Shown: positions 24,396 to 60,086 of the stretch, one piece after another | Numbering within the stretch: position 1 is the stretch's first letter | How the letters are laid out: every line of letters begins with the position of its first letter | Source of the DNA: Microbacterium sp. 5K110 | GTDB lineage: Bacteria > Actinomycetota > Actinomycetes > Actinomycetales > Microbacteriaceae | Direction of reading: 5' to 3' | Length of the DNA stretch: 64,000 nucleotides | Assembly (NCBI RefSeq): GCF_005774735.1 | Contig: NZ_VBUM01000006.1 | Span: 1-64,000, forward strand | The notes under the pieces: model-generated | What the model was told of the DNA's origin: nothing | The model's database searches: none | The model's input: the letters and a program-made list of their open reading frames with translations, nothing else | Position numbers and translations under genes: made by a program

Positions 24396-24467
24396 TCCGC
24401 CGTGGTGTAACGGCAGCACGACAGCCTTTGGAGCTGTTAGGTCCAGGTTCGAATCCTGGCGGCGGAG
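24396..24467 (+). tRNA. tRNA-Gln (anticodon TTG)
   Basis: A full cloverleaf can be folded: acceptor TCCGCCG/CGGCGGA, D-arm GTGT/GCAC, anticodon stem ACAGC/GCTGT with loop CTTTGGA giving anticodon TTG, T-arm CCAGG-TTCGAAT-CCTGG, discriminator G. The CCA end is not encoded. The glmU ATG begins two bases after the discriminator base. Confidence 0.95.
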
Positions 24468-46589: not shown

Positions 46590-47189
46590 ATGCGCTTCGC
46601 TCATCTGGGGGCCGAGCCCCGTATCCATCCCGACGCCGTCGTCGCCCCGACCGCCGTCATCAGCGGCGACGTCACGATCGGTCCCGGATGCCAAGTCCTC
46701 CACGGCGCCGTGCTCACCGCCGAGGGGAGTCGGATCGTGCTGGGAGAGCACACGGTCGTGATGGAGAACGCGCTGGTGCGGGCGAGCTCGACCCACGCGG
46801 TGCACGTCGGGGCCCACACTCTGATCGGTCCCATGGCCAGCGTGGCGGGAGCCGACATCGGCGCGGAGGTGTTCCTGGCCACCGGCACGCGGGTCTTCAA
46901 CGGTGCCGAGGTCGGCGACAGGTGCGAGGTGCGCATCAACGCGGTGGTCCACTTGCGTACCGTCCTTGCGCCCGAGACGGTGGTGCCGATCGGATGGGTC
47001 GCGGTGGGCGATCCGGTGCAGCTGCTCTCGCCCGACCGGCACGACGAGATCTGGGCCGCCCAGAAGGAGCTCGACTTCCCGGGATACGTCTTCGGCCTCG
47101 ACCGTGAGACCCCCGACCTCATGATCCAGCTCACCGAGCGGTACGGCCGGAGTCTCGCGCGGCACGCCCACGACCGCCGACTCGACTGA
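46590..47189 (+). CDS. Hexapeptide-repeat protein, gamma carbonic anhydrase-like
   Basis: A 199-residue left-handed beta-helix protein of the gamma-CA/PaaY group. Hexapeptide repeats run through residues 15-140. The metal histidines of gamma carbonic anhydrases would lie near STHAVHVGAHTLIG and INAVVHL, so a metal site is possible. The C-terminal helix contains AAQKELDFPGYVFGLDR. GGGAAGGA precedes the ATG and TACGCT lies about 25 bases further up. Substrate unknown. Confidence 0.75.
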   Translation: MRFAHLGAEPRIHPDAVVAPTAVISGDVTIGPGCQVLHGAVLTAEGSRIVLGEHTVVMENALVRASSTHAVHVGAHTLIGPMASVAGADIGAEVFLATGTRVFNGAEVGDRCEVRINAVVHLRTVLAPETVVPIGWVAVGDPVQLLSPDRHDEIWAAQKELDFPGYVFGLDRETPDLMIQLTERYGRSLARHAHDRRLD

Positions 47190-47267
47190 GACGGGGCGGG
47201 GGCCCCGGCATCCGATGCTGTTCACGTCCACCGGCCGCGGGAGGGTGGCGCGGACCGCTGATCATCA

Positions 47268-48161
47268 TCACACGTGGCGGTGTGCGCCCGGGACGAGGGG
47301 AATGTCGGGGCCTGTCCAGAACGCCTCCAAGAGGGCAACCCCCGCGTCGGCCAGGGCCAACGACGGTTCGGCGTCCGAGGCGAAGCTCTCGTCCAATGAA
47401 CCGACCGCCGCGCACGCGTAGACAAAGCCGCCCGTGCGCCAGCGCACGATCCCGGCGTCGACGCGGGTCCCGGGGACGAATCCCGTCTTGGACGCCACCG
47501 TCAGAGGCGCCAGCGCGGCGAGCTCCGCAGCGTACGGGTTGACCTTGTAGAACTTCGTCACCTGATCGAGATAGAGCTGAGTCGTGAGGATCTGCTCCGC
47601 CCTGCCCGACACCCACGGCGAAACGGCCGTGCGGGACTGGACAGCGTCCATCAGAGCGCGCAGCTGGTTTACCGGAGCCACGCCCAGCAGTTCCGGGTCG
47701 TCCGCGATGAGGTCCAGGTCGACGGGGTTCCGCAGCCGGATGCGTCGCAGGCCGACGGCGTCCATCATCCGATTGACCTCGTCCACGCCCCCCGGGATCT
47801 CAGCGAGCACGGCGTTGGTGGCAATGTTGTCGCTCGTCGCGATCATGAGCACGAGCAGGTCCTCGAAGGTGACCTGTAGGTCGCTTCGCAGCAGGCGGAG
47901 AATCCCCGAGCCCTGCACCCCGTGGTCTCGAGCGGGTGAGCTGACACGATCGAGGTCGATCCGGCCCAGCTCCGCGTGGCGCAGAGCGGTCAGCAGAATC
48001 GGGATCTTGATGACGCTCGCGGTGGCCACGGGGGCGGTGGAGTTGAGCTCCACCGCCCCCGTACCGTTCAGGCTCCGAGCCGACACGTGCAGAGAGCCGG
48101 AGAAGCGCTCGTCGATGTCGGTGAGGGTGCCCATGAGGTCATCGCGCTGCGCTGGGGTCAT
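47268..48161 (-). CDS. Cytoplasmic serine hydrolase of the class A beta-lactamase fold (copy 1)
   Basis: A 297-residue hydrolase of the Beta-lactamase2 type. Catalytic blocks are SVIK (ASVIKIPILLT, near residue 50), SDN (MIATSDNIATN) and KTG (VASKTGFVPG). There is no signal peptide, unlike secreted beta-lactamases. In the omega-loop region LIADDPELLGVAPVN the glutamate is not matched in the second copy at 53.6 kb, so it is unlikely to serve as Glu166. It overlaps the binding-protein gene by four bases at the end of the importer operon, so it probably acts on what is imported: an amide, ester or D-peptide. Confidence 0.8.
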   Translation of the reverse strand: MTPAQRDDLMGTLTDIDERFSGSLHVSARSLNGTGAVELNSTAPVATASVIKIPILLTALRHAELGRIDLDRVSSPARDHGVQGSGILRLLRSDLQVTFEDLLVLMIATSDNIATNAVLAEIPGGVDEVNRMMDAVGLRRIRLRNPVDLDLIADDPELLGVAPVNQLRALMDAVQSRTAVSPWVSGRAEQILTTQLYLDQVTKFYKVNPYAAELAALAPLTVASKTGFVPGTRVDAGIVRWRTGGFVYACAAVGSLDESFASDAEPSLALADAGVALLEAFWTGPDIPLVPGAHRHV

Positions 48162-49300
48162 TCCACGCCCTCGACGTTGCCCATCGCCTTCAGGAACCCC
48201 GTGTCGCCGAGGAACCGGTTGTCCTCGTTGAGCGGGGGGAGCTTCGCGACCGCGGTGGTGCCGTCCGGGTGGTAGGTGGCCAGCTGCTCCTTGTTCATCA
48301 CGAGCTGGGGGAGCGGGGTCACATCGGCGGGAGGCTTGACGCCGTCGGCGAGAGCCTGCGCCATGGCCACCGCGTACTCGCCCCAGTAGGACACGAAGAT
48401 GTCGCCCTCAGCGACCCATCGGGGATCGTTCTTGAGTGAGGCGAGCCCGGTCTCGTCACCGCCGAGGCCGGCGATGAGCAGCTTGTCCGCTCCCCCGCGA
48501 CCCGCGTCCTCCAGTGCGCGGAGAGCGCCGTTGGTGGAGTCGTTGTTCACCGTGTAGAGGATGATGTTCCGATCCGCGGGGATGCTCGCGATGAGACCTT
48601 GGACGGCTTCGAAGCTCGGCTGCAGCGTCGACCCGCCGTCGAACTGGATGCCGTTCGTCCCGATCGTGGTCGTGGTCGCGCTGATCGCGTCGGGCGCGAC
48701 GGCCTCGAAGCCGAGGACGTCGGCCACCGTCGAATAGAAGTGGTGGACGGCGGCGTTCACCCCCTCGCCGGCGGCGGCGTTCTGACCGATCAGGACGGTG
48801 GTGTTCGACGCGTCCCACCCCCGCTGCTTGGCGATTTCTCCGACGATCGTCGCGCTCTCGTCTCCCAGCGCGGCGTTGTCGATGTTGAGGAAGGAGCATG
48901 CGCTCGCGTCGATGTTGAGGGCCACACACGGGATGCCGCTGTCGGCGATGAGCTTGGAGACTCCGTCGGTGGCGGACGAGACGGGGTAGAGCACCATGGC
49001 ATTCGGCTGCTCCACGATCATCTGCTGCACGTTCTGGAGCATGGTCGAGGCGTCGCCCTTGTTGTCGAACCATGTGACATCCACACCCTTGGATGCGGGG
49101 TCGAGCCCGTCGAGGGTCGTGTGGATCACCTGGAAGAACGGCACGCTCTCGTTGTAGTTGGCGAAGGTGACCGTCATCGTGCCGTCGGACGCGTCGGCGG
49201 TCGACCCGCCCGAGCACCCGGAGAGGGCAAGTGCGGTGATCGCCGTGACACTCGTGCCGAGAGCGAGTCGGCGTAACACGGATGCGCTGTGTGCGGACAT
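48158..49300 (-). CDS. ABC transporter substrate-binding lipoprotein, RbsB-like
   Basis: Binding protein of 380 residues in the periplasmic-binding-protein 4 fold (ribose/galactose/autoinducer-2 group). The lipobox LSGC marks Cys29. Domain features include VTFANYNESVPFFQVI, VQQMIVEQPNAMVLYPV and IILYTVNNDSTNGALRALED. This fold usually binds sugars or sugar-like ligands, but amino-acid-like or muropeptide ligands cannot be excluded and the neighbours all concern D-amino acids. No ribosome site conflict: the ATG is 42 bases after the permease stop. Confidence 0.88.
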   Translation of the reverse strand: MSAHSASVLRRLALGTSVTAITALALSGCSGGSTADASDGTMTVTFANYNESVPFFQVIHTTLDGLDPASKGVDVTWFDNKGDASTMLQNVQQMIVEQPNAMVLYPVSSATDGVSKLIADSGIPCVALNIDASACSFLNIDNAALGDESATIVGEIAKQRGWDASNTTVLIGQNAAAGEGVNAAVHHFYSTVADVLGFEAVAPDAISATTTTIGTNGIQFDGGSTLQPSFEAVQGLIASIPADRNIILYTVNNDSTNGALRALEDAGRGGADKLLIAGLGGDETGLASLKNDPRWVAEGDIFVSYWGEYAVAMAQALADGVKPPADVTPLPQLVMNKEQLATYHPDGTTAVAKLPPLNEDNRFLGDTGFLKAMGNVEGVE

Positions 49301-49342
49301 GGGATTCCTTTCGGGTGTGATGGTGCAGAGGGGTGAACGCGG

Positions 49343-50311
49343 TCAGCGCAGTCGGCGCCGAATCTGGCTCAGACCCACCGCCGCGAGCAGCACGAGTCCG
49401 GTCGCGATGGTCTGATAGAAGGACGGCACGTGGGTGAGGGCCATGCCGTTGGAGAGCGCGCCGAGGATCAGTACGCCGAGAACCGTTCCCGGAACGCCGC
49501 CCACGCCGCCCGTGAGGGCCGCCCCGCCGAGAATGACGGCGGTGATCGACTGAAGGTTCGTGTTGATGCCGGCCGTGCCCGAGCCGGTCAGCAGCTGACT
49601 GGCGAGGACGACACCGGCCAAAGCCGCCAGCATCGAGCAGAGGACGTAGACCGAGGAGGTCACGGAGTTCACCCGGATGCCGGCGAGCCGGGCCGCCTCC
49701 ACGTTGCCGCCGACGGCGTAGATGCGTCGACCGTATGAGGTGTACGACAGGACGATGTGAACCACGATCGCGAGACCGACGAACAGCCACACCTGGTTGT
49801 TCACACCGAACAGGCCTCGTGAGGTCAAGGCACCGACATCGGGGTTGGTAAAGGGGATCTGCAATCCGTTGGAGATGACGAGGGCGAGCCCGCCCACCAC
49901 GGAAAGGGTTCCGAGGGTGGCGATCAAGGGATTGATGCGAGCCCGGGTGATGAGCAAGCCGTTGACCAGCCCGACAACGCCCCCGGCAGCCAGCACGACG
50001 ACCAGGGCGGGTACGAGGCCGAGCCCGGCATTCGTCAGGAGCGCGAACAGCACGCCCGCCAGAGGGACGACGCCACTGACGGACAGATCGAAGCCACCCG
50101 AGATGAGCGGGAGGACCTGTCCGAGGGAGACGAGCCCGATAACAGCCGAGATCGACAGGATGTTGAGGACGTTCGCGGTGCTGAGAAAGTTCGCACTCAT
50201 GCTCGCGAACACCCCGACGACCACGACGAGGAACCCCCCCAATACCAGGAGCTGAGACGAGAGGCGGGGGAGCCGTACACGTCTGGTGGGGCGGATGGAG
50301 CTCTCGGTCAT
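49343..50311 (-). CDS. ABC transporter permease, RbsC-like
   Basis: Membrane subunit of 322 residues with about ten helices in the BPD_transp_2 family. VLPLISGGFDLSVSGVVPLAGV and the GGAALTGGVGGVPGTVLGVLI loop are typical of sugar-type (CUT2) permeases. It overlaps the ATPase gene by four bases and is followed by the binding protein. Confidence 0.9.
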   Translation of the reverse strand: MTESSIRPTRRVRLPRLSSQLLVLGGFLVVVVGVFASMSANFLSTANVLNILSISAVIGLVSLGQVLPLISGGFDLSVSGVVPLAGVLFALLTNAGLGLVPALVVVLAAGGVVGLVNGLLITRARINPLIATLGTLSVVGGLALVISNGLQIPFTNPDVGALTSRGLFGVNNQVWLFVGLAIVVHIVLSYTSYGRRIYAVGGNVEAARLAGIRVNSVTSSVYVLCSMLAALAGVVLASQLLTGSGTAGINTNLQSITAVILGGAALTGGVGGVPGTVLGVLILGALSNGMALTHVPSFYQTIATGLVLLAAVGLSQIRRRLR

Positions 50312-51813
50312 TGGATACCTCCGGCGGCTTCGAGGGCGCGGGCTTGATCTGCTCGGGTGGGGAACGCGATGTCATCGACGATGCGACCGCGGTGCACGAT
50401 AAGGAGCCGGTCACACAGGAGGACCGCTTCCTCGATGTCCGAGGTGACCACCAGCTGCGCGGTACCGCCGTCGGCGAGGCCGCGCAGGATGTCGTGGATC
50501 TCCTCACGTGCCCCGACGTCGACGCCGCGACTCGGTTCGTGCAGGACGAGAACAGGTGCGTCTGCGAGCAGACGGTTTCCGACCAGCACCTTCTGCTGGT
50601 TTCCCCCCGAAAGCTCACCGACGGTCTGGTCGATCGATCGGGCCCGTACCCGCACACGGGTATAGAGATTCTGAGCGACGGCCCTCTCGCGGCGGCGGAG
50701 AATCCAGCCCGCACGAGACACGCGGCGCAGGTCGGGCAACGTGAAATTTCGGCGGATCGAGTCGATGAGGACGAGTCCTTGGGACTTCCGATCTGCGGGA
50801 ACATAGGCGATGCCGGCCCGCCAGCTCTGGCGGGGGTTGCGTAGACGGTTCATCGTGGCGCCGGCCACAGCGATGCGACCGACCGCGTCAGGGTGCAGGC
50901 CGCCCAGGGTCTCCGCAAGAGTGTCGGCGCCACTACCGCGGAGCCCGTAAAGTCCGACGATCTCGCCCTCACGCACGACCAGATCAACATCATCGAGAAT
51001 CGGGGCTTGAGTGCGCCGGAGGCCCCGCACTTCCAGCCGGGGCGGCGCGTCGCTGGGGCAGCGGTCGACCTTCGCCGTCGATGACTGCTCATGGCCGAGC
51101 ATGTCGGCGATCGCCTGCGAGGGGGTCAGATCCGCGGTGCGACTGGAGCGTACGAGTGCACCGTTGCGCAGGACGTGCACGGTGTCGCACGTTGCGAAAA
51201 CCTCCTCGAGACGGTGGCTGATGAGGATGACGGCGACCCCGGAGGCCGACAGGCGTCCCAGCAGTTCGTGCAGTCGCGCGCTGTCCTCGGACTCGAGCGC
51301 GGCGGTCGGCTCGTCGAGGATCAGGATGCGGGCCTGGCGCGTGACGGCTTTGGCGATTTCGACGAGTTGACGTTGCGCGAGCGAGATGTCGGCCATCGGA
51401 GTGTCGAGCGGAAGATCGAAGCCGGCGATGTCGGCGTACTTGCGAGCGGCGCGGATCATCGCCGAGGGCGATGTAAACCCGAAGCGCGACGGTGGTGCAC
51501 CCAGGCTGATGTTCTCGGCGACGGTCAGCGCCGGCACGTAGACGAGTTCCTGGGGGATGAACGACACCCCCGCGGCCAGCGCATCGCGAGGAACGGTGAA
51601 CCGTACGCCACGGCCGTCCACGGCGATGCCGCCGTCGTCGGGACGCGTCGACCCGGCGATGATCTTGGCGAGGGTCGACTTGCCCGCGCCGTTCTCGCCG
51701 AGCAATGCCGTGCGCTCTCCGGCCGCGAGGGAGAAGGTGATGCCGTCCAGGACGACATTCTCGCCGTACCGCTTTGTCACGCCGTCGACGGACAAAACCG
51801 GGGTGGGATCCAT
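50308..51813 (-). CDS. ABC transporter twin ATP-binding protein, RbsA/MglA-like
   Basis: A 501-residue protein with two ATPase cassettes, the CUT2 arrangement. The first has LLGENGAGKSTLAKII near residue 36, DISLAQRQLVEIAKAV and ILILDEPTAAL. The second is degenerate in Walker A (LYGLRGSGADTLAETLGG), as in RbsA, with GELSGGNQQKVLVGNRLL. SD GGAAGG precedes the ATG. The upstream gap carries a motif shared with the divergent control region, which suggests joint regulation by the PucR protein. Confidence 0.92.
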   Translation of the reverse strand: MDPTPVLSVDGVTKRYGENVVLDGITFSLAAGERTALLGENGAGKSTLAKIIAGSTRPDDGGIAVDGRGVRFTVPRDALAAGVSFIPQELVYVPALTVAENISLGAPPSRFGFTSPSAMIRAARKYADIAGFDLPLDTPMADISLAQRQLVEIAKAVTRQARILILDEPTAALESEDSARLHELLGRLSASGVAVILISHRLEEVFATCDTVHVLRNGALVRSSRTADLTPSQAIADMLGHEQSSTAKVDRCPSDAPPRLEVRGLRRTQAPILDDVDLVVREGEIVGLYGLRGSGADTLAETLGGLHPDAVGRIAVAGATMNRLRNPRQSWRAGIAYVPADRKSQGLVLIDSIRRNFTLPDLRRVSRAGWILRRRERAVAQNLYTRVRVRARSIDQTVGELSGGNQQKVLVGNRLLADAPVLVLHEPSRGVDVGAREEIHDILRGLADGGTAQLVVTSDIEEAVLLCDRLLIVHRGRIVDDIAFPTRADQARALEAAGGIQ

Positions 51814-51890
51814 CGCGTACCTTCCGGGTCGGTGTTGTCGATAGTGGGTCCAGGTTAGGAAGCGGCGACGGGGTCACCTATGTCCAGTTC

Positions 51891-51906
51891 GCCAGCGTTG
51901 TGGCCG
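51891..51906. promoter_or_regulatory. Candidate PucR operator, importer operon
   Basis: GCCAGCGTTG-TGGCCG is nearly the same as the core of the palindrome at 53526-53543 (GCCAGCGTTGGCCGG), with one extra base. It lies 78 bases upstream of the ATPase ATG on the minus strand. Confidence 0.45.
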
Positions 51907-51950
51907 AGCGAGTATGCGGGCGCACACTGCGGCGCCTCGCCATGACCCGC

Positions 51951-53471
51951 TCAGCGCGACTTCAGGGGGCGTCCGGCTGTGCCCGTCCGTAGCGCGCCCT
52001 CTATGACGACCGGCTCCCCGCCGACGATCACGTGACGCACGCCGACTGATGCCTCGATCCTGATCGCACTGGCCCGATCGTTGATGCGATGAGGGTCGAA
52101 GACGGTGATGTCCGCGTCGAATCCGGGTGCCACGCGGCCCTTCGTCCGCATCCGCGGTACGAAGGGGGCGAGGATCTCGGCGGGGATCGTCGAGGTGCGC
52201 AGGACCGCATCCGGCAGGGACAGTGCGCCGAGGTCGCGCACCAGCCAGCCGAACGTGCGCGCGAACGTTCCGACGCTGCGCGGATGCACGCGCGAACCCT
52301 CCGGGAGCGGGCTCCGCCCGGAGAGATAGCGACCGTCGGGGCCGACGATCGGCATGGCATCCGAGGCCACGACTGTTCCCGGCACATCGAAGCTGCGCAG
52401 GAGCGTTCTCACGTCGACGGGGTCGTCGCCGTCGAGATAGTCGATCAGACACAGTCCCCCCGGGTCGGTCGCGCGCAAGTGTGCGAGCTCGTCGACGTCA
52501 CGGACTCGTGTACCCGTCGGAAGGTAGGTGATGGCGGAGGCCTCGATGCCGAGGCGGTCGAGGCGGTCGGGGGCGAGAAAGGCGGCGCCGATCCCCGTAC
52601 TGGACATCGTGTACGGGTAGGCCTCCGTCGTGATCTGGTTGCCCCGCGATTGCGCCTTCGTCACGGCGCGGGCGACATCGTCGATGCGTCGCAACGAGGT
52701 GCTGTTGATGTGACACATGTGCATACGGGCTCCGCTGCCTGCGGCGGCAGCGATCACCTCGAGTGCCCCGTCGACGGATGAGCCCGGTTCCTGATTGGAC
52801 ATCTGACGCGAGTGCGTGAAGACCGCTACTCCGGCCGACTCGGCGAGCTCAGCCACGCGGAAGTACTCCTCACGGCCTGAGGCGGGTGCATAGCCGAGGA
52901 GTACCCCGATCCCGATGGCGCCCTGACTCACCGCATCGGCGAGCACACCGATGATCGAGTCCACCTCTGCCCGGGTCGCGATCCGATGCCACGCAGGCAG
53001 CCGCTGGTTGCGTTGGAAAACTTCCATGGCGGTGGTCAGCGTGCCGTCCTCAGCGGGGGTGGGAAGAGGGATCCCCGCCATGACATGCATGCGGGCGACG
53101 GCCCACGAAGCGGCGAACCCGAAGTTGATCGGGCGACCCTCGGTGACGGCGGCGGCGTACTGCGCCTGCACCGGAAGAGTGCCCGATTCGAGGTCCAGTG
53201 CCGTAGTGACGCCGTCGAGCGCCTGGAATCCGAGTCCGATAGGTGTCTGAGCATGACTGTGCAGGTCGATGAACCCGGGTGCGACGACAAGCCCGCGCGC
53301 GTCGATCGTGGAGCGTGCCGTCGCGGAGACCTGGCCGACGGCGATGATCCTGCCGTCACGAACGGCGACATCGGCGATGCCGTCCTGCGCGGATCGCGGG
53401 TCGACGACGCGCCCCCCGCGGATGACGATATCGGCGGGAGCCGGAGTGTGTGCGGCGTCTTCGGGTGTCAT
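51951..53471 (-). CDS. N-acyl-D-amino-acid deacylase family amidohydrolase
   Basis: Metal-dependent amidohydrolase of 506 residues (COG3653 type), cleaving N-acyl groups from D-amino acids. The metal-binding start is APGFIDLHSHAQTP with His71 and His73; LQALDGVTTALDLESGTLPV resembles the branch annotated as D-glutamate deacylase, with Glu where classic D-aminoacylases have Cys. HMCHINSTS and VASDAMPI provide further ligands. No signal peptide. GGAGG precedes the ATG at 53471. It faces copy 2 of the serine hydrolase across a shared control region and lies upstream of the importer operon. Confidence 0.85.
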   Translation of the reverse strand: MTPEDAAHTPAPADIVIRGGRVVDPRSAQDGIADVAVRDGRIIAVGQVSATARSTIDARGLVVAPGFIDLHSHAQTPIGLGFQALDGVTTALDLESGTLPVQAQYAAAVTEGRPINFGFAASWAVARMHVMAGIPLPTPAEDGTLTTAMEVFQRNQRLPAWHRIATRAEVDSIIGVLADAVSQGAIGIGVLLGYAPASGREEYFRVAELAESAGVAVFTHSRQMSNQEPGSSVDGALEVIAAAAGSGARMHMCHINSTSLRRIDDVARAVTKAQSRGNQITTEAYPYTMSSTGIGAAFLAPDRLDRLGIEASAITYLPTGTRVRDVDELAHLRATDPGGLCLIDYLDGDDPVDVRTLLRSFDVPGTVVASDAMPIVGPDGRYLSGRSPLPEGSRVHPRSVGTFARTFGWLVRDLGALSLPDAVLRTSTIPAEILAPFVPRMRTKGRVAPGFDADITVFDPHRINDRASAIRIEASVGVRHVIVGGEPVVIEGALRTGTAGRPLKSR

Positions 53472-53525
53472 ATGTGAGCCTCCACCACAAGGATGCGCAG
53501 ACACGCTCCTCGGAGCGATGTGCAA

Positions 53526-53543
53526 CCGGCCAGCGTTGGCCGG
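53526..53543. promoter_or_regulatory. Candidate PucR operator, divergent control region
   Basis: CCGGCCA and TGGCCGG form an 18-base inverted repeat with a four-base spacer (GCGT). A second perfect palindrome, CGCTCC-TC-GGAGCG, is at 53504-53517. Both lie in the 153-base gap between the deacylase and the second hydrolase. Confidence 0.5.
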
Positions 53544-53624
53544 CGAACACTGTTCAGGCCATGGTGTCGCGCGCGGGAGCACGTCGTCGAGAATGAGGGT
53601 TCCGAGCGAAGGAAGAGGTGCCTC

Positions 53625-54542
53625 ATGGGGGCCGCGGAGGACATTCAGGCCGAGATCGCGCGTATCGCTGACGAGTTCAGCGGCGAGATCAGTGTGGCGG
53701 CGACCAATCTCCGTACCGGTGAGCACGTGGAGTTCAATTCGCGCGAAGCGTTCCCCGCGTCCAGCGTCATCAAGGTGCCGATCCTCGTGACGCTCTTTCA
53801 CCGAGCCGAACGGGGTGCGGTGCACCTGGACCGCCGCCTGACGATGCACGAGGAGGACCGCGTGCCCGGCTCCGGGGTCCTGAAGCTGCTGTCGGGCGGT
53901 CTGACACTGACGGTCGCCGACGCGGCTGCCCTCATGATCGCCGTGAGCGACAACACGGCCGCGAACCTGGTCATCGATCAGCTCGGCGGGATCGCTGAGG
54001 TCAATCGGGCGATGACCGAGCTCGGACTGCACAGCATCCGGTTGAAGAACAGGCTCGATTTCGACGTCATAGGTCGCGACATCGCCCACCTGGGCGTGGC
54101 GAGCACGAACGACCTCGACACTCTCGCCCAAGCCATAGCTCACCGGACGGCTTTCTCGCCGGCCGTGTCCGAGGCGTGCGAGAAGCTGCTGTCGCAGCAG
54201 CAGTATCTCGACCAGGTGCTGCGGTACGTGAGCGTGGCACCGTATGCGGAGGAGCTTCGCATCGTTCAGCCCGTGGTATCGGCCAGCAAGACCGGGTTCT
54301 ACCCCGGGGTACGTAATGACATGGGCATCGTCCGGTTCCGTGGCACGGGGTTCACGTACGCTGCCTGCACGCGGGGGTCGGACGATACGCTCTTCGCGCC
54401 CGAGGACGAGGGCGAAGTCACCAACGGACGCATCGGCCACCTGCTCCTGCGGCACTGGTGGCCTGAGGACGCCGGTCCGGCCCCCGTCGCGGATTCCCCG
54501 TATTTGCGGCGCGGAGGCGGCTCGATGAGGTCGTCGACATGA
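53625..54542 (+). CDS. Cytoplasmic serine hydrolase of the class A beta-lactamase fold (copy 2)
   Basis: A 305-residue relative of the hydrolase at 47.3 kb. It keeps SVIK (SSVIKVPILVT), SDN (VSDNTAANLVID) and KTG (SASKTGFYPG) and also shares VPGSGVLKLL and the LGVASTNDLD region. The residue matching Glu in copy 1 is Ala here (GRDIAHLGVA), so no general base of the class A kind is present. No signal peptide. GGAAGAGG precedes the ATG. The stop overlaps the PucR gene as ATGA. It probably cleaves an amide or ester from an imported D-amino-acid compound; it is unlikely to be a resistance enzyme. Confidence 0.8.
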   Translation: MGAAEDIQAEIARIADEFSGEISVAATNLRTGEHVEFNSREAFPASSVIKVPILVTLFHRAERGAVHLDRRLTMHEEDRVPGSGVLKLLSGGLTLTVADAAALMIAVSDNTAANLVIDQLGGIAEVNRAMTELGLHSIRLKNRLDFDVIGRDIAHLGVASTNDLDTLAQAIAHRTAFSPAVSEACEKLLSQQQYLDQVLRYVSVAPYAEELRIVQPVVSASKTGFYPGVRNDMGIVRFRGTGFTYAACTRGSDDTLFAPEDEGEVTNGRIGHLLLRHWWPEDAGPAPVADSPYLRRGGGSMRSST

Positions 54543-56140
54543 GCGCGTCTGCGGGGGTGCCGCTCAACAAGGTGCTCGGCGAGCTGGGGACGACCGTGGT
54601 TGAACTGGCGCTCGGACGTGTACAGCCGACCTCGACGGTGTCGTCGGTGACGATCTTCGATCCGTTGGATCCCTCGCTGATCATCCCCGGTTCCCTCGTG
54701 CTCGGGGTGGGTGTCGCGGGTGGCGAACCCACGCTCGAGCTCGTGCGCCAGCTGGCGGAGCGCAGAGCGGCAGCCCTCGTCCTGCGCGAGCCGGTATCCG
54801 TGGACCGCGATGCGGCCGCCGTCCTCGATAGTGCGGGGGTCCCGGTCATCGGTCTCGTGCGCGGCGTGCCGTGGAATCAGATCGCCGCGGCCGCGACATT
54901 GGCGATCTCGCGCCAAGCGATCGACGGCTTCGGCGACGACACGGACATCATCGGCGAAGCGACCGATCTGCGCTCGCTCGCCAACTCCGTCGCGGCCCTC
55001 CTCGATGCCGCGGTGACCATCGAGGACGTCAACTCCCGCATCGTGGCGTTCTCCTCCGGCGAGCAGAAGACCGATAAATCGCGACGGGCGGCGGTACTCG
55101 GACAGCGGGTGCCGGAGTCCTCCCAGCAGCGTCTGCGTGACGCGGGGATCTTCCACCGCGTCTACGCCGAGCCGCTTCCGATCTTCATCAAGCCGGGAGA
55201 CGTCTACGAGCGCGGCCGAGCCGTCGTTCGGGTGACCGCGGGAGATTCTCTGCTGGGGTCCATCTGGGCGGTGGTGGACGAGCCGCTCGACGCGAGCCGT
55301 CAGCGCGTGATGGTGGAGGCTGCGAGGATCGTCGCCGTCCAGATGCTGCGGGAGCGAGTCGAGGCGGATGCGTCACGTCGGCATCGACGGCGCCAGCTCG
55401 CGGCCCTCCTGAACGGCGGTGACCAGGCGCGGAGCGCGGCGACCGAGCTGGGCCTGCGCTCGCGAAAGTACATCGTCTTCGGCGTCTCCTCGGTAGACGG
55501 AGGAACCGACGACCCGGCCGACATCGTGCGAATGGAGCGCATCAGCCGGACATTCGAACTGCACCTCGTGACCTACCACCCGCACAGCCTCGCCGGTTCG
55601 GTCGGCGACATCGTCTACGGCATCCTGCCGGTGGACGAGGAGCACGGGGCCGAGGGGGCGTACCTCTCGGCGGTGGGCACGGCGTTCGTCGCTCAGCGTG
55701 CAACCCGCCTTCCGGTTCGGCTGGGAATCGGTGAATCCGTTCGCGACATCGGCGATCTGCACCGCTCCAAGGCTGGTGCCGATCGCGTGCTGCGGGTCAT
55801 CGGGCTTCGTGAGCGGGGTGCGTACCGCATCGACGAGGTGCGACACGACGTCATGCTCGCCGAGATGAAGGATCGGTGGACGGACGAGCAGAGCTCTCTT
55901 CTGCACCAGGTCGATCAGCTCACGGATTGGGACGCCGTCCACGGGACGCAGCTGCTGCTCACCCTCGACCGATATCTCGAGAACTTCGGCGACGTGCGTG
56001 CGGGAGCAGAGGAACTCATCGTGCACCCGAACACCTTCCGACTGCGGCTCCGCCGCATCCAGGAACTCCTCGGCGTCGACCTGGACAACCCCGATGACCG
56101 CTTCAATCTCATGCTCCAGCTCCGATTGCGGCGACTGTGA
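54539..56140 (+). CDS. PucR family transcriptional regulator
   Basis: A 533-residue regulator with the PucR ligand domain (about residues 5-125), a GGDEF-like central domain and a C-terminal HTH_30 (DRYLENFGDVRAGAEELIVH then PNTFRLRLRRIQELLGVD). PucR-type proteins usually activate purine, amino acid or amine catabolic genes in response to a small ligand. Coupled by ATGA to the hydrolase and by TGATG to the racemase, it is the probable regulator of both gene sets, acting at the shared motif upstream of each. Confidence 0.9.
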   Translation: MSASAGVPLNKVLGELGTTVVELALGRVQPTSTVSSVTIFDPLDPSLIIPGSLVLGVGVAGGEPTLELVRQLAERRAAALVLREPVSVDRDAAAVLDSAGVPVIGLVRGVPWNQIAAAATLAISRQAIDGFGDDTDIIGEATDLRSLANSVAALLDAAVTIEDVNSRIVAFSSGEQKTDKSRRAAVLGQRVPESSQQRLRDAGIFHRVYAEPLPIFIKPGDVYERGRAVVRVTAGDSLLGSIWAVVDEPLDASRQRVMVEAARIVAVQMLRERVEADASRRHRRRQLAALLNGGDQARSAATELGLRSRKYIVFGVSSVDGGTDDPADIVRMERISRTFELHLVTYHPHSLAGSVGDIVYGILPVDEEHGAEGAYLSAVGTAFVAQRATRLPVRLGIGESVRDIGDLHRSKAGADRVLRVIGLRERGAYRIDEVRHDVMLAEMKDRWTDEQSSLLHQVDQLTDWDAVHGTQLLLTLDRYLENFGDVRAGAEELIVHPNTFRLRLRRIQELLGVDLDNPDDRFNLMLQLRLRRL

Positions 56141-57339
56141 TGGCATCCTCATCCGGTCAACGGCCGGAGGCGACGATCACCGCCGGCAGTGGTGCGGAGC
56201 GTTGGGTCGATGTGGACCTCGACGCGATCGCCGACAACGTCGCCGCGGTCGCGCGGTGGGTGGCACCTGCAGCGGTCATGGCGGTGGTCAAGGCGGACGC
56301 TTACGGGCACGGCGACGTGCAGGTGGCCCGCGCGGCCCTGCGAGCGGGTGCTGACACGCTGGGGGTCGCCCACGTCGAGGAAGCGTTGAAGCTCCGACGC
56401 GCCGGCATCGGCGCGCCGGTCCTGGCATGGCTCCACACGCCGCGCACCGACATGACGGGAGCCGTGAGAGCCGCTGTCGACCTCGGCGTCTCCTCCTTGG
56501 CGGAGTTGCACTCGGTGGCCCGCGCGGTCGAGACGGCGGGCGGCCGCGCAGGAGTGCACCTCAAGGTCGACACGGGGCTCGGACGCAACGGAGCCTCGCC
56601 CGCCGACCTGGACGAGATCCTCGGTTGGGCCGCGGCCTACGAGGCGCAAGGGCGCATCGAGGTGAAGGGGATGATGTCGCACCTTTCGGCCGCGGAGGAT
56701 CCCGAGCAGGACGAGAGGACGCGTGCGCAGGCACGGACGTTCGTTGCGACGGTCGAGCTCGCCCGTCGCCACGGCATCCGGCCGCACCGTCGGCATATCG
56801 CCAACACGGCAGCGGCCCTTCGTCACCGCGAGCTGCACTTCGACATGGTCCGGCTGGGGCTGGGCACCTACGGGCTGTCTCCCCTGGGGGTGAACGCGCG
56901 CGAGCCCATCGACCTGCGTCCCGCCCTTTCGGTCTCGACCGTCCTTTCGAGCGTGCGCGTCCTTCCCGCTGGCCACGGGATCTCCTACGGCGCACAGTTC
57001 GTGACATCGAGACCGACCCGAATCGGGCTCGTCCCGCTCGGGTACGGAGACGGTTTGCCTCAAACAGCCGACGGCATGAGCGTTCTCATCGGCGGGGCCA
57101 CCTTCCCCGTGCGGGGGAGGATCGCCATGGATCAGCTGGTCGTGGACCTCGGGCCTGCGGAATCAGCCGTCCCGGTCGAGGTCGGTGACACCGTCACGGT
57201 GCTCGGGGGTTCTCGGGGACAGTCCGCAGCGCGATGGGCGCAGGCAGCGGCCACCATCCCGTACGAGGTCGTCACGGGACTGTCGGTACGCGGTCCTCGC
57301 CTCCACTCCCACCTGCCCGCCCCCGACCCCGCGGAGTGA
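56140..57339 (+). CDS. Alanine racemase (catabolic, cluster-encoded)
   Basis: PLP enzyme interconverting L- and D-alanine. The PLP lysine is Lys51 in VVKADAYGHG, and the second catalytic base is Tyr in GHGISYGAQF. The beta-domain motif RIAMDQLVVDLG is present. ATG at 56140 overlaps the PucR stop; a GTG one codon earlier is possible. It lies in a D-amino-acid gene set and not with the cell wall genes, so I read it as a secondary racemase; whether it is the only Alr of the genome cannot be seen here. Length 399. Confidence 0.9.
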   Translation: MASSSGQRPEATITAGSGAERWVDVDLDAIADNVAAVARWVAPAAVMAVVKADAYGHGDVQVARAALRAGADTLGVAHVEEALKLRRAGIGAPVLAWLHTPRTDMTGAVRAAVDLGVSSLAELHSVARAVETAGGRAGVHLKVDTGLGRNGASPADLDEILGWAAAYEAQGRIEVKGMMSHLSAAEDPEQDERTRAQARTFVATVELARRHGIRPHRRHIANTAAALRHRELHFDMVRLGLGTYGLSPLGVNAREPIDLRPALSVSTVLSSVRVLPAGHGISYGAQFVTSRPTRIGLVPLGYGDGLPQTADGMSVLIGGATFPVRGRIAMDQLVVDLGPAESAVPVEVGDTVTVLGGSRGQSAARWAQAAATIPYEVVTGLSVRGPRLHSHLPAPDPAE

Positions 57340-57346
57340 GGGCAGC

Positions 57347-60019
57347 TCAGCCGGTGTTCTGCAGACCGGCGGCCACGCCGCTGACCGACAGCAACAGCAG
57401 GCGCTGGTGCTCGGGATCGGTCTTGGGGGCGTCGGCGGGTGCGTCGCGCAGAGCCCGCAGGGCCCGCAGCTGCAGAAGCGACAGGGCGTCGACGTACGGG
57501 CTGCGCATCTTGACCGCGCGCTGCAGCACGGGCTTGTTGCCCAGCAGCCCGCCACCGGTGATCCGCTCGACCCACGAGCGGGTCAGGAGCATCTCGTCCA
57601 TCACGAGGCCGGCGAGGTCGTCGCGGTCGCCGAGAGCGAGGTACCGACGCGCGATGCGCTCGTCGGCCTTCGCCAGGCTCATCGCGACGTTGTCGATCAT
57701 CGTCCGGAACAGCGGCCACTGCTCGTACGCCTCGCGCAGGCGCTGCTCGTCACCGACGGCATCCAGCGCCGTTCCGAGGCCGAACCACCCGGCGAGGTTG
57801 ATGCGGGCCTGGGTCCACGAGAACACCCACGGAATCGCGCGGAGGTCTTCGAGCGACTCGACCGACAGGCCGCGGCGCGCCGGGCGCGAGCCGAGCGCGA
57901 GGTGCCCGAGCTCTTCCATCGGGGTGACGGTGGCGAACCACGGCGCGAAGCCGGGGGCCTTCACCAGGGCGAAGAACCGTTCGCGTGACGCGACGTCCAT
58001 CGTGGCGGCGACGTCGGCGAACGCTTCGGCCGCCCCGCGGTTGCGGCGTTCGATCGAGGGGGAGGATGCCGTGAGCACCGCGGCCGCGACCTGATCGATG
58101 TGGCGCATCGCGATGTCCGGGTCGCCGTAGCGGGCGAAGATGACCTCGCCCTGTTCGGTGAGCTTGAACCGGCCGTCGACCGAGTGCGGCGGCTGCGCGA
58201 GGATCGCGGAGTTCGCCGGACCGCCGCCGCGCCCGAGGGCGCCGCCGCGGCCGTGGAAGAGGGTCAGCTCGATGCCCTCGGCCTCGGCCCACGTCGAGAT
58301 CAACGCCTGGGCCTCGTACAGCGCGAGGTTCGCGGCGACGGGGCCGACGTCCTTCGACGAGTCGGAGTAGCCGAGCATCACTTCGAGGCGGCGACCCGTG
58401 GCATCCAGTCGACGGACGAAAGCGGGGTGCGAGACGATCTCGGCGAGGATGCCGGGAGCGGCCTGCAGGTCGGCGAAGGTCTCGAACAGCGGGATGACGT
58501 CGAGCACCGGCGGCTGCTCGCCCGGGCCCATCGCGTACGACGCGAGCTCGTGCACGGCGGCCAGGTCGTCGGCGGACTGCGTGAACGACACGATGTACCG
58601 GCCGGCGGCGCGCGGCCCGAAACGCTCCTGCACGTAGGCGATCGAGCGGAAGACCTCGAGCACTTCTTCGGTCTGCTCGCTGCGCTCGCCGCCGGCGCGG
58701 AGCTCGGCGAGGACCTTCGCGTGCACGGCCGAGTGCTGGCGCACCTCGAGCTCGGTCAAGTGGAAGCCGTACGTCTCGACCTGCCAGACGAGGCGCTGGA
58801 GCGAACCGTAGGCCTGGCGTGCGGCGCCGGCCGCGACGAGGGAGTCCTGCACCGTGCGCAGATCGGCGAGCAGGTGCTCGGGATCGCGGTAGGCGAGGTC
58901 GGCGTTGCGCGTGCGCGTCGCGGCGATCTTGCGGGCCAGGAGCAGCAGGATGCGGCGGTGCGGCTCGTCGGGGGAGCGCTCGGCGATCTCGGCCGCGGCG
59001 TCTTCGTCGGCGGCGCGGAGGCGGTGCCACAGCGCAACGAGCGCGTCGCTCGGCGGGGTGGTCTCGGCATCCAGCGTCAGTCCGCGACCCACGCGCTGCG
59101 TCGTGCGCTCGAGGCCGATCAGCACGTGCTCGCTCGCGATCGCGGCGGCCTTGCGGGTGACGGATGCCGTGACGAAGGGGTTGCCGTCGCGGTCACCACC
59201 GACCCAGGAGCCGACGCGCACGAAGGGCTTCACGATCGGCGCGCGGGCACCGGCGTTCTCGCCCTGCAGGATATCGTCGATGCGGCGGTACACCCGTGGG
59301 ACGGCGGTGTAGAGCGTCTCGTCGAAGACGGCCATGACCGAGCGCACCTCGTCGACCGGTGACGGCTTCTCGCGGCGGAGGGGCGCGGTGCGCCACAGCG
59401 TGTCGATCTCCTCGAGCATGCGGCGCTCGGTGCGCCGGGTCTCGGTGTCGTTCTCGCCGGCGTCGTCGTGCTCGGCGAGCAGCTCGGACAGCCGGCGGAT
59501 GCTCGTGGAGATCGCGCGGCGGCGGGCCTCGGTGGGGTGCGCGGTGAAGACCGGGTGGAACCGCAGCGCCTGCAGACGCGCCAGCGCGCCCTCCTCGCCG
59601 ATCTCGCTCGACAGGCGCTCGAAGGCCGTCGCGATCGTGTCGGGGGTGCCGCCGCGCGACGGACGGTCGCCGCGCTCGCGGAGCACGCGCACACGCTGGT
59701 GCTCCTCGACGAGGTTGACGAGGTGGAAGTACGCCGTGAAGGCGCGCGCCACTTCGTCGGCGCGGGCGATCGAGAAGCCGTCGGCGATCGCCGCAGCCCG
59801 CTCGAACGCCTCGGGCGTCTCGTCGGTGTAGGCCTGGATCGTCGCCGTCCGCAGTTTCTCGACGTCGTCGTAGAGGCCGGGGGAGCCGCTCTCGCGAAGC
59901 ACGCGGCCCAGGAGCGAGCCGAGCAGACGCACGTCGGCGCGCATCTGTTCGGGGAGTTCTTGGCCTGCTTCGAAGCGGCCCACGAGGTCGATGGCCTCGG
60001 TCGGGGTCAGTTCACGCAC
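57347..60019 (-). CDS. ppc: Phosphoenolpyruvate carboxylase
   Basis: Anaplerotic enzyme making oxaloacetate from PEP and bicarbonate. The catalytic His is in FHPVFTAHPTEARRR near residue 150, the glycine loop is FHGRGGALGRGGGPAN, and GYSDSSKDVG and the C-terminal QNTG end are intact. With the GTG start at 60019 the protein has 890 residues. TACTCT lies seven bases before that GTG, making it leaderless; an upstream GTG (60058) would precede the promoter. It is convergent with the racemase, seven bases apart. Confidence 0.96.
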   Translation of the reverse strand: MRELTPTEAIDLVGRFEAGQELPEQMRADVRLLGSLLGRVLRESGSPGLYDDVEKLRTATIQAYTDETPEAFERAAAIADGFSIARADEVARAFTAYFHLVNLVEEHQRVRVLRERGDRPSRGGTPDTIATAFERLSSEIGEEGALARLQALRFHPVFTAHPTEARRRAISTSIRRLSELLAEHDDAGENDTETRRTERRMLEEIDTLWRTAPLRREKPSPVDEVRSVMAVFDETLYTAVPRVYRRIDDILQGENAGARAPIVKPFVRVGSWVGGDRDGNPFVTASVTRKAAAIASEHVLIGLERTTQRVGRGLTLDAETTPPSDALVALWHRLRAADEDAAAEIAERSPDEPHRRILLLLARKIAATRTRNADLAYRDPEHLLADLRTVQDSLVAAGAARQAYGSLQRLVWQVETYGFHLTELEVRQHSAVHAKVLAELRAGGERSEQTEEVLEVFRSIAYVQERFGPRAAGRYIVSFTQSADDLAAVHELASYAMGPGEQPPVLDVIPLFETFADLQAAPGILAEIVSHPAFVRRLDATGRRLEVMLGYSDSSKDVGPVAANLALYEAQALISTWAEAEGIELTLFHGRGGALGRGGGPANSAILAQPPHSVDGRFKLTEQGEVIFARYGDPDIAMRHIDQVAAAVLTASSPSIERRNRGAAEAFADVAATMDVASRERFFALVKAPGFAPWFATVTPMEELGHLALGSRPARRGLSVESLEDLRAIPWVFSWTQARINLAGWFGLGTALDAVGDEQRLREAYEQWPLFRTMIDNVAMSLAKADERIARRYLALGDRDDLAGLVMDEMLLTRSWVERITGGGLLGNKPVLQRAVKMRSPYVDALSLLQLRALRALRDAPADAPKTDPEHQRLLLLSVSGVAAGLQNTG

Positions 60020-60086
60020 ACGCCCCAGAGTAGTTGCGTCACGTTGCGGCCATGTCACGCGGGCCGTTCCGTGCCGTTCCGGCGGT

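Follow-up and report, generated by a model that had tools for sequence, protein, structure and literature searches.

A divergent eight-gene insertion in Microbacterium sp. 5K110 with a predicted function in the import and intracellular opening of a D-amino-acid compound

The first 64,000 nucleotides of contig NZ_VBUM01000006.1 of Microbacterium sp. 5K110 (the window) contain a set of eight genes at positions 47268-57339 that is organized in two divergent arms and encodes an importer, three hydrolases, a regulator and an alanine racemase (Alr). The features of the set are, in window coordinates:

47268-48161, minus strand: hydA, cytoplasmic-looking serine hydrolase of the class A beta-lactamase/PBP-A fold family PF13354
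48158-49300, minus strand: substrate-binding lipoprotein (substrate-binding protein, SBP), Peripla_BP_4, CUT2 type
49343-50311, minus strand: permease, BPD_transp_2, CUT2-type
50308-51813, minus strand: double ABC ATPase, CUT2-type
51951-53471, minus strand: amidohydrolase of the PRK09061/NF006560 subfamily with D-aminoacylase fold, putative N-acyl-D-amino acid or D-peptide amidase
53472-53624, no strand: divergent control region, 153 bases between the two arms
53625-54542, plus strand: hydB, second PF13354 serine hydrolase
54539-56140, plus strand: PucR-type regulator, HTH_30
56137-57339, plus strand: Alr, additional full-length alanine racemase, TIGR00492
47195-57346, no strand: span of the insertion, as delimited by relatives with the hexapeptide gene next to ppc

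All eight genes lie where a preliminary description of the locus had placed them and family profiles agree with the families given there. The same description had every junction overlapping by 1-4 bases. This picture is partly confirmed: four of the six junctions within the arms overlap (hydA/SBP, permease/ATPase, hydB/PucR and PucR/Alr), each by 4 bases, while gaps of 42 and 137 bases separate the SBP from the permease gene and the ATPase from the amidohydrolase gene, respectively. An imperfect 22-base palindrome at 53531-53552, inside the divergent region, represents a candidate operator. Promoter and terminator scans found none, with chance expectations of 0.5 and 3.1. The best NCBIfam match of the PucR-type regulator is AdeR at 102.9 bits, far under the cut-off of 700, and may be taken as a weak hint only to the function of the regulator. 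Four proteins gave no match in PADLOC and a defence reading was consequently rejected.

The set occupies an insertion of ca. 10.15 kb between a hexapeptide gene located after mfd (46590-47189) and ppc (57347-60058). Of same-genus genomes, 39 were searched; the hexapeptide gene is present in 32 of them at E 1e-40 and 29 non-self loci were retrieved. ppc lies within ca. 350 bases of the hexapeptide gene in 17 of the 29, with the 16 most similar loci among them, and the remaining 12 show no ppc inside the 1.5-kb flank. The DNA alignment with the nearest relative (L204) breaks at 47194 and resumes at 57347, with identities of 87% and 89%, and alignments with four further relatives break at most 8 bases from these positions. 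GC content is 65-70% across the insertion and 69-74% in the flanking kilobases, with the exception of one at 66% inside mfd. The single tRNA of the 64-kb window is found at 24396, away from the insertion. The relatives sampled are mostly without the insertion: the PRK09061 profile scores above cut-off in three of 299 same-family genomes, the own genome included, and hydB was found in one of 396 same-order genomes, the own only (E 1e-25). A hydrolase profile run against 396 genomes of the phylum reached at most 105 bits outside the inserted island, compared with 507 and 521 bits for the hydA/hydB pair. A third PF13354 protein of the same genome (G000:C126:18-809) scores 84 bits with this profile and is located at a contig edge outside the island. 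Because the insertion lies cleanly between genes that adjoin in relatives, the gene set is more than a chance assembly. Jointly with the functional explanation developed below, we consider it moderately probable that a catabolic set was acquired here by horizontal transfer.

The two serine hydrolases are paralogues sharing 44% identity. hydA possesses the SxxK, SDN and KTG motifs and carries a valine at the position corresponding to Glu166 of class A beta-lactamases. The same position is occupied by Leu144 in hydB and by isoleucine in three homologues. Leu158 of PBP-A, presumably equivalent to position 166, aligns with the hydB leucine. Against the class A beta-lactamase model the pair scores 54 and 98.7 bits, under the curated cut-off of 200. 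The structural model of hydB (pLDDT 80.7, with weak stretches at residues 195-213 and at the C-terminus) matches a Chitinophaga protein, a Sphaerobacter protein, PBP-A and the LRA-5 precursor with Z-scores of 32.9-33.6. According to the part of its description available, PBP-A has both DD-carboxypeptidase and endopeptidase activity, with specificity for amidated muropeptides (PMC11189452). The decisive feature is the Glu166 position, by which the hydrolases are predicted not to be ordinary beta-lactamases; a beta-lactamase reading of the pair was rejected because of the missing glutamate. No signal peptide is apparent by eye in hydA, hydB or the amidohydrolase, so all three should act in the cytoplasm.

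Plasmid-borne relatives of the hydrolases were also considered, with 5 of 132 plasmid records matching hydB inspected. On Deinococcus peraridilitoris pDEIPE01 (L041, 2916-7855) a terminal PF13354 hydrolase gene accompanies Opp, M20, NlpC/P60, dipeptide epimerase and MurR/RpiR-type regulator genes. This stretch contains no annotated LD-carboxypeptidase and the hydrolase could fill that step. A Cetobacterium somerae plasmid (L040, 5026-14652) encodes a glutamate racemase, a diaminopimelate (DAP) decarboxylase, an M20 protein, a serine hydrolase, two amidohydrolases and an alanine racemase, with a Tn3 transposase nearby.

The importer links the window to Alphaproteobacteria. Its SBP has a lipobox-like N-terminus (by eye) and is 39-41% identical to three alphaproteobacterial homologues. 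The Asp-Arg dyad of RbsB, which contacts the sugar, is replaced by Asn-Ile in the window and Aureimonas SBPs. The gene order ATPase-permease-SBP-hydrolase is conserved in all three importer homologues found. On Aureimonas plasmid pAU20b (L039; SBP 40% identical to that of the window) and in genome G1259 (L163; permease 52%, ATPase 48% and SBP 39% identical, hydrolase 40% identical to hydB) the series is headed by an M81 gene. The G1259 M81 protein matches Pfam M81 and MlrC_C and reaches 344 bits for MlrC, whose cut-off is 999. In genome G1785 (L235; ATPase 49%, permease 54%, SBP 41% and hydrolase 42% identical) the hydrolase is followed by a PRK09061 amidohydrolase (42% identical, 710 bits), a CobW protein and a PF01266 DAO protein with D-amino acid dehydrogenase as its best NCBIfam match (164 bits, below the cut-off of 383). 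The importer partner is consequently M81 in two of three homologous loci and PRK09061 in one, and the combination of importer, hydrolase and amidohydrolase recurs in another phylum. This comparison covers three loci only, a small number, and the Aureimonas and G1259 loci were first found with a hydrolase query, which makes the importer-hydrolase pairing partly one of choice. The hydrolase and amidohydrolase of G1785 are independent in this respect since the locus was found with the SBP profile. The preliminary description had envisaged that such importers might consistently accompany sugar catabolic genes and lack the hydrolases. This did not come out: a hydrolase gene lies directly behind the SBP gene in all three homologues, and no sugar-catabolic gene was seen in their operons. 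With the dyad lost as well, we rejected a sugar-importer reading.

The importer-hydrolase module is rare, with the Aureimonas-type hydrolase present in one of 347 genomes of the Bosea order. The SBP was found in none of 329 Pseudomonadota genomes, in 2 of 121 genomes of the G1259 family and in none of 19 genomes with PRK09061, which account for 19 of the 80 loci described below. Eleven SBP matches on plasmids, at 23-25% identity, lie beyond the loci compared. M81 and PRK09061 genes occur together in four plasmid loci; three of these, all Rhodobacterales plasmids, carry an annotated flavin adenine dinucleotide (FAD)-dependent oxidoreductase, and a DAO domain was confirmed for L044. MlrC removes Adda from linear microcystin by cutting the Adda-Glu bond, as stated in the part of the source available (PMC4810221). 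CobW-type GTPase genes are located directly after PRK09061 in proteobacterial loci L044, L047-L051, L235, L099, L109, L118 and L128, and the GTPase may deliver metal to the amidohydrolase. CUT2-like permease and ATPase genes near PRK09061 in six Microbacterium loci (L095, L108, L115, L116, L125, L126) were not counted as the importer of the window; in L125, the one examined closely, the transporter looks like a monosaccharide-type system with a LacI regulator (by eye).

The amidohydrolase is a member of the NF006560/PRK09061 subfamily (567.9 bits, curated cut-off 340). Its AlphaFold2 model (pLDDT 93.7) is predicted to adopt a (beta/alpha)8 fold with a small beta-domain and is nearest to 1M7J and 3GIP, with matches to the N-acyl-D-Glu deacylase 3gip (Z 42.1, 423 residues aligned, root-mean-square deviation 2.1) and the D-aminoacylase 1v4y (Z 42.1). 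OngB, an amino-sugar deacetylase and sister of the D-aminoacylases, is tied with these in fold (Z 41.3 vs 42.1) and lower in profile score (132 bits vs 163-171); the available part of its description also supplies the list of strictly conserved residues used here (PMC12017989). Invariant across 42 sequences are R398 of the HPR motif (the alpha-carboxylate arginine), Y287 (YPY), Y194 (GYAP) and the metal-binding histidines H220 and H254. The metal-bridging cysteine (Cys97 in OngB numbering) is not kept, the column being of Ala/Ser type with serine in the window, and an invariant glutamate lies one position earlier in the profile alignment to 3gip. The alpha-carboxylate lysine (Lys254 in OngB numbering) is also not kept and is replaced by an asparagine that is at least 90% conserved in the 42 sequences. 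For the gamma-carboxylate-binding Arg295 of BbDam the alignment stops five residues short, and a gap-free count gives Phe301 of P0001. The earlier label of D-acylamino-acid deacylase thus holds for the fold, while the protein belongs to a sister subfamily in which two diagnostic residues differ. Judged from model and sequence, the scaffold is similar to that of proven D-aminoacylases, yet the enzyme should not be filed as one of them.

To investigate the company of PRK09061 genes, we examined the best 80 of at least 589 confirmed loci with up to 10 kb on each side (22 of the 80 under 19 kb); 39 control stretches, each 20 kb long, were taken at fixed positions from ten actinobacterial genomes only. 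PF13354 hydrolases are found near PRK09061 in 21 loci, PF00144 hydrolases in 32, enzymes of the N-acylamino-acid-racemase (NSAR) type in 18, GNAT proteins in 20, M20 proteins in 16, PucR regulators in 15, OppA-type proteins in 20 and DAO proteins in 2, with each of these families absent from all 39 control stretches. A beta-lactamase-fold hydrolase occurs in 36 of the 80 loci and in none of the 39 controls, and an M55 D-aminopeptidase in three loci. Restricting the count to loci that span 19 kb or more, 58 in number, gives 21 loci with PF13354, 17 with NSAR and 14 with PucR (Fisher p 5e-6, 6e-5 and 6e-4), values that overstate independence because the 80 loci are related. In L075 the racemase-type gene exceeds the cut-off of a MenC model (308 bits) and is read as an N-acylamino-acid racemase because its neighbours are GNAT and M20 genes. 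A D-to-L reading fits the recurrent NSAR-type, DAO and M55 genes near PRK09061 homologues. Two actinobacterial loci (L046, 2831-15452; L105, 9992-21174) combine PRK09061, M20, GNAT, a racemase-type enzyme, PucR, a major facilitator superfamily transporter and two PF13354 and one PF00144 hydrolases; no description of clusters of this type was found among the titles listed in our literature search.

The Alr of the set is a full family member (TIGR00492, 314 bits, cut-off 168) with KADAYGHG and SYGAQ in its translation, the catalytic lysine and tyrosine motifs of Alr enzymes. It could have been the sole Alr of the genome, as the preliminary description had considered; however, the genome has a further alr located between acpS and tsaE, and the comparison called for there gives 45% identity between the two. 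The genome also has a tandem of two Alr-like genes, at 8-652 and ca. 650-1707 of L004 (G000:C124, ca. 8.2-9.9 kb); one consists mainly of the C-terminal domain, the other is longer and diverged, and neither looks like a standard Alr. The host genome encodes one L-alanine dehydrogenase (538 bits). No convincing D-amino acid dehydrogenase was detected in it: the search, which covered this enzyme and no other type of D-amino acid oxidase, gave fragments scoring 26 bits or less. From the gene content, Alr and alanine dehydrogenase plausibly provide the exit in this organism, a role for which L235 carries a DAO enzyme. Alr as the exit would be the window locus's own variant.

Overall, we favour with moderate confidence a function in which the set imports a D-amino-acid compound, opens it in the cytoplasm and turns freed D-alanine to L-alanine. 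The lipoprotein and the CUT2-type transporter would import a small D-amino-acid compound, a short peptide or an N-acyl amide and not a sugar. In the cytoplasm, hydA, hydB and the PRK09061 amidohydrolase would then cut amide bonds around a D-residue, with D-alanine among the products. The added Alr would convert D-alanine to L-alanine and the host L-alanine dehydrogenase would yield pyruvate and ammonia, placing Alr where relatives may use a DAO-family dehydrogenase-like enzyme or an N-acyl racemase route. PucR would control both arms from the divergent region. The argument is carried by the Glu166 evidence and the operon evidence. Import, intracellular opening and racemisation were already the core of the preliminary interpretation, which is partly supported: this core gains comparative support, and the wall fragment proposed as substrate would be one candidate beside other D-amino-acid compounds.

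Several observations weigh against this proposal. The hydB fold is tied between PBP-A (2j7v, Z 33.4) and the class A enzyme TLA-3 (Z 32.8) and therefore does not by itself choose between the two, and the amidohydrolase does not have two of the residues that are strictly conserved among proven D-aminoacylases. Alr is present in none of the three importer homologues and in none of the 80 PRK09061 loci, which leaves the window locus as the single basis of the D-alanine step. These 80 loci also contain neither an SBP of the window type nor a hydrolase of the subfamily found in the window. Most PRK09061 loci are without the partners in question: 36 of 80 have a beta-lactamase-fold hydrolase and 20 a D-amino-acid exit gene, the other 60 showing none. 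In locus L036 (58% identical) the scan detected neither hydrolase nor exit genes, and the closest CUT2-like transporter is ca. 7 kb away from PRK09061. On a Granulicella plasmid a distant hydrolase relative adjoins a glycosyl hydrolase and a Halorussus plasmid with a hydB match has no clear set; neither supports the theme. One of the 8 plasmids inspected among 175 records matching PRK09061 (Tistrella) has CobW alone.

Other explanations differ mainly in the substrate. Scavenging of wall peptides, in which a stem-peptide fragment is imported, hydA and hydB work in the cytoplasm as DD- or LD-carboxypeptidases that free D-alanine and an acyl-D-Glu or D-isoglutamine-type bond is opened by the amidohydrolase, is a possibility we hold only tentatively. 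Alr suits D-alanine, and distant PF13354 hydrolases are found in wall-peptide-like sets, with Opp, M20, NlpC/P60 and dipeptide epimerase in Deinococcus and with murI, lysA and alanine racemase in Cetobacterium. PBP-A itself is a DD-carboxypeptidase in the available part of its description (PMC11189452). However, identity to hydB is only 34% for the Deinococcus and 25% for the Cetobacterium hydrolase, the eight genes include no NlpC/P60, Ala-Glu epimerase, LdcA, DAP or muramic-acid gene and a CUT2-type importer is an unusual peptide carrier. A secondary metabolite or plant conjugate, such as N-acyl-D-amino acids or D-containing nonribosomal peptides, is a similarly doubtful candidate. M81 proteins beside the same importer, the L163 protein reaching 344 of the 999 bits set for MlrC, and beside PRK09061 on the three Rhodobacterales plasmids with annotated FAD-dependent oxidoreductase point in this direction, as does the release of Adda from linear microcystin at Adda-Glu by MlrC in the source available in part (PMC4810221). 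Nothing in the window, however, names a peptide. Such compounds would also yield many D-residues, while the specificity of Alr is narrow and directed at alanine.

An alternative in which the importer carries a sugar or amino sugar, the hydrolases are unrelated to it and the amidohydrolase is an OngB-like amino-sugar deacetylase appears improbable. The transporter is of the CUT2 class, and OngB is a sister of the D-aminoacylases in the part of its description available (PMC12017989), with an equally close fold (Z 41.3 vs 42.1). Yet no sugar kinase, isomerase or glycosidase is encoded among the eight genes, and none was seen in the three importer-homologue operons. The Asp-Arg dyad is lost and the OngB profile score is lower (132 vs 163-171 bits). 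Antibiotic protection, with the hydrolases as beta-lactamases and the additional Alr as a buffer against cycloserine and other inhibitors of this enzyme, is very improbable since the PF13354 fold and the second Alr that speak for it are outweighed by the absent Glu166, the absence of a signal peptide by eye, class A scores (54 and 98.7 bits) below the cut-off of 200 and an importer and amidohydrolase left unexplained.

The proposed import and opening of a D-amino-acid compound would assign a function at once to three poorly described families, namely a "sugar" importer, a subfamily annotated only as "amidohydrolase family protein" and beta-lactamase relatives of the cytoplasm. The occurrence of either M81 or PRK09061 next to this importer, combined with dehydrogenase-like, N-acyl-racemase or Alr exits, suggests interchangeable D-amino-acid modules in bacteria. 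A more specific version, which we regard as rather unlikely, is that PBP-A-type D-alanyl peptidases were recruited as paired cytoplasmic enzymes and, coupled to a CUT2 importer re-purposed for compounds other than sugars and to a dedicated Alr, convert imported D-Ala-containing wall or natural-product peptides to L-alanine; if true, it would raise the new question of how the paired peptidases leave the D-Ala-D-Ala wall precursor in the cell's own cytoplasm intact. A literature search, thin on subscription journals, found no description of this gene set. Within known D-amino-acid catabolism, the new elements would be the re-purposed importer, the twin Glu166-less hydrolases and the Alr exit.

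Comparison with known systems places these elements in context. Like the CUT2 sugar importers RbsABC and AraFGH, the window system consists of a binding protein, one permease and a double ATPase; in contrast, its SBP is without the sugar-binding dyad and the importer partners are hydrolases, M81 or PRK09061. The M81-importer-hydrolase operons of Aureimonas and G1259 possess the same ATPase-permease-binding protein-hydrolase order but contain M81 instead of PRK09061, a single hydrolase, no Alr and a LysR instead of a PucR regulator (annotated in Aureimonas, by eye in G1259). hydB shares with PBP-A of Thermosynechococcus the fold (Z 33.4, a tie with class A beta-lactamases), the SxxK, SDN and KTG motifs and the leucine at the Glu166 position; it is 26% identical, presumably intracellular as no signal peptide is seen by eye, and has a PYAxxL segment before KTG that is missing from the actinobacterial PF13354 proteins compared. 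The amidohydrolase has the fold (Z 42), the HxH motif, two later metal-binding histidines, the HPR arginine and two tyrosines in common with AfDam (1M7J) and BbDam (3GIP), as well as an invariant aspartate in an SDxxP motif (by eye), and differs by the replaced cysteine, the change of lysine to asparagine and its separate subfamily NF006560. The N-succinylamino-acid-racemase route from D- to L-amino acids, using GNAT, NSAR and M20 enzymes, was reportedly described by Sakai et al. in 2006. NSAR use is also covered in the available part of a further source (PMC7431475). This route has the D-to-L theme in common with the window locus and in Actinobacteria stands beside PRK09061, PucR and PF13354 hydrolases, whereas the eight genes of the window locus include Alr and no GNAT, NSAR or M20.

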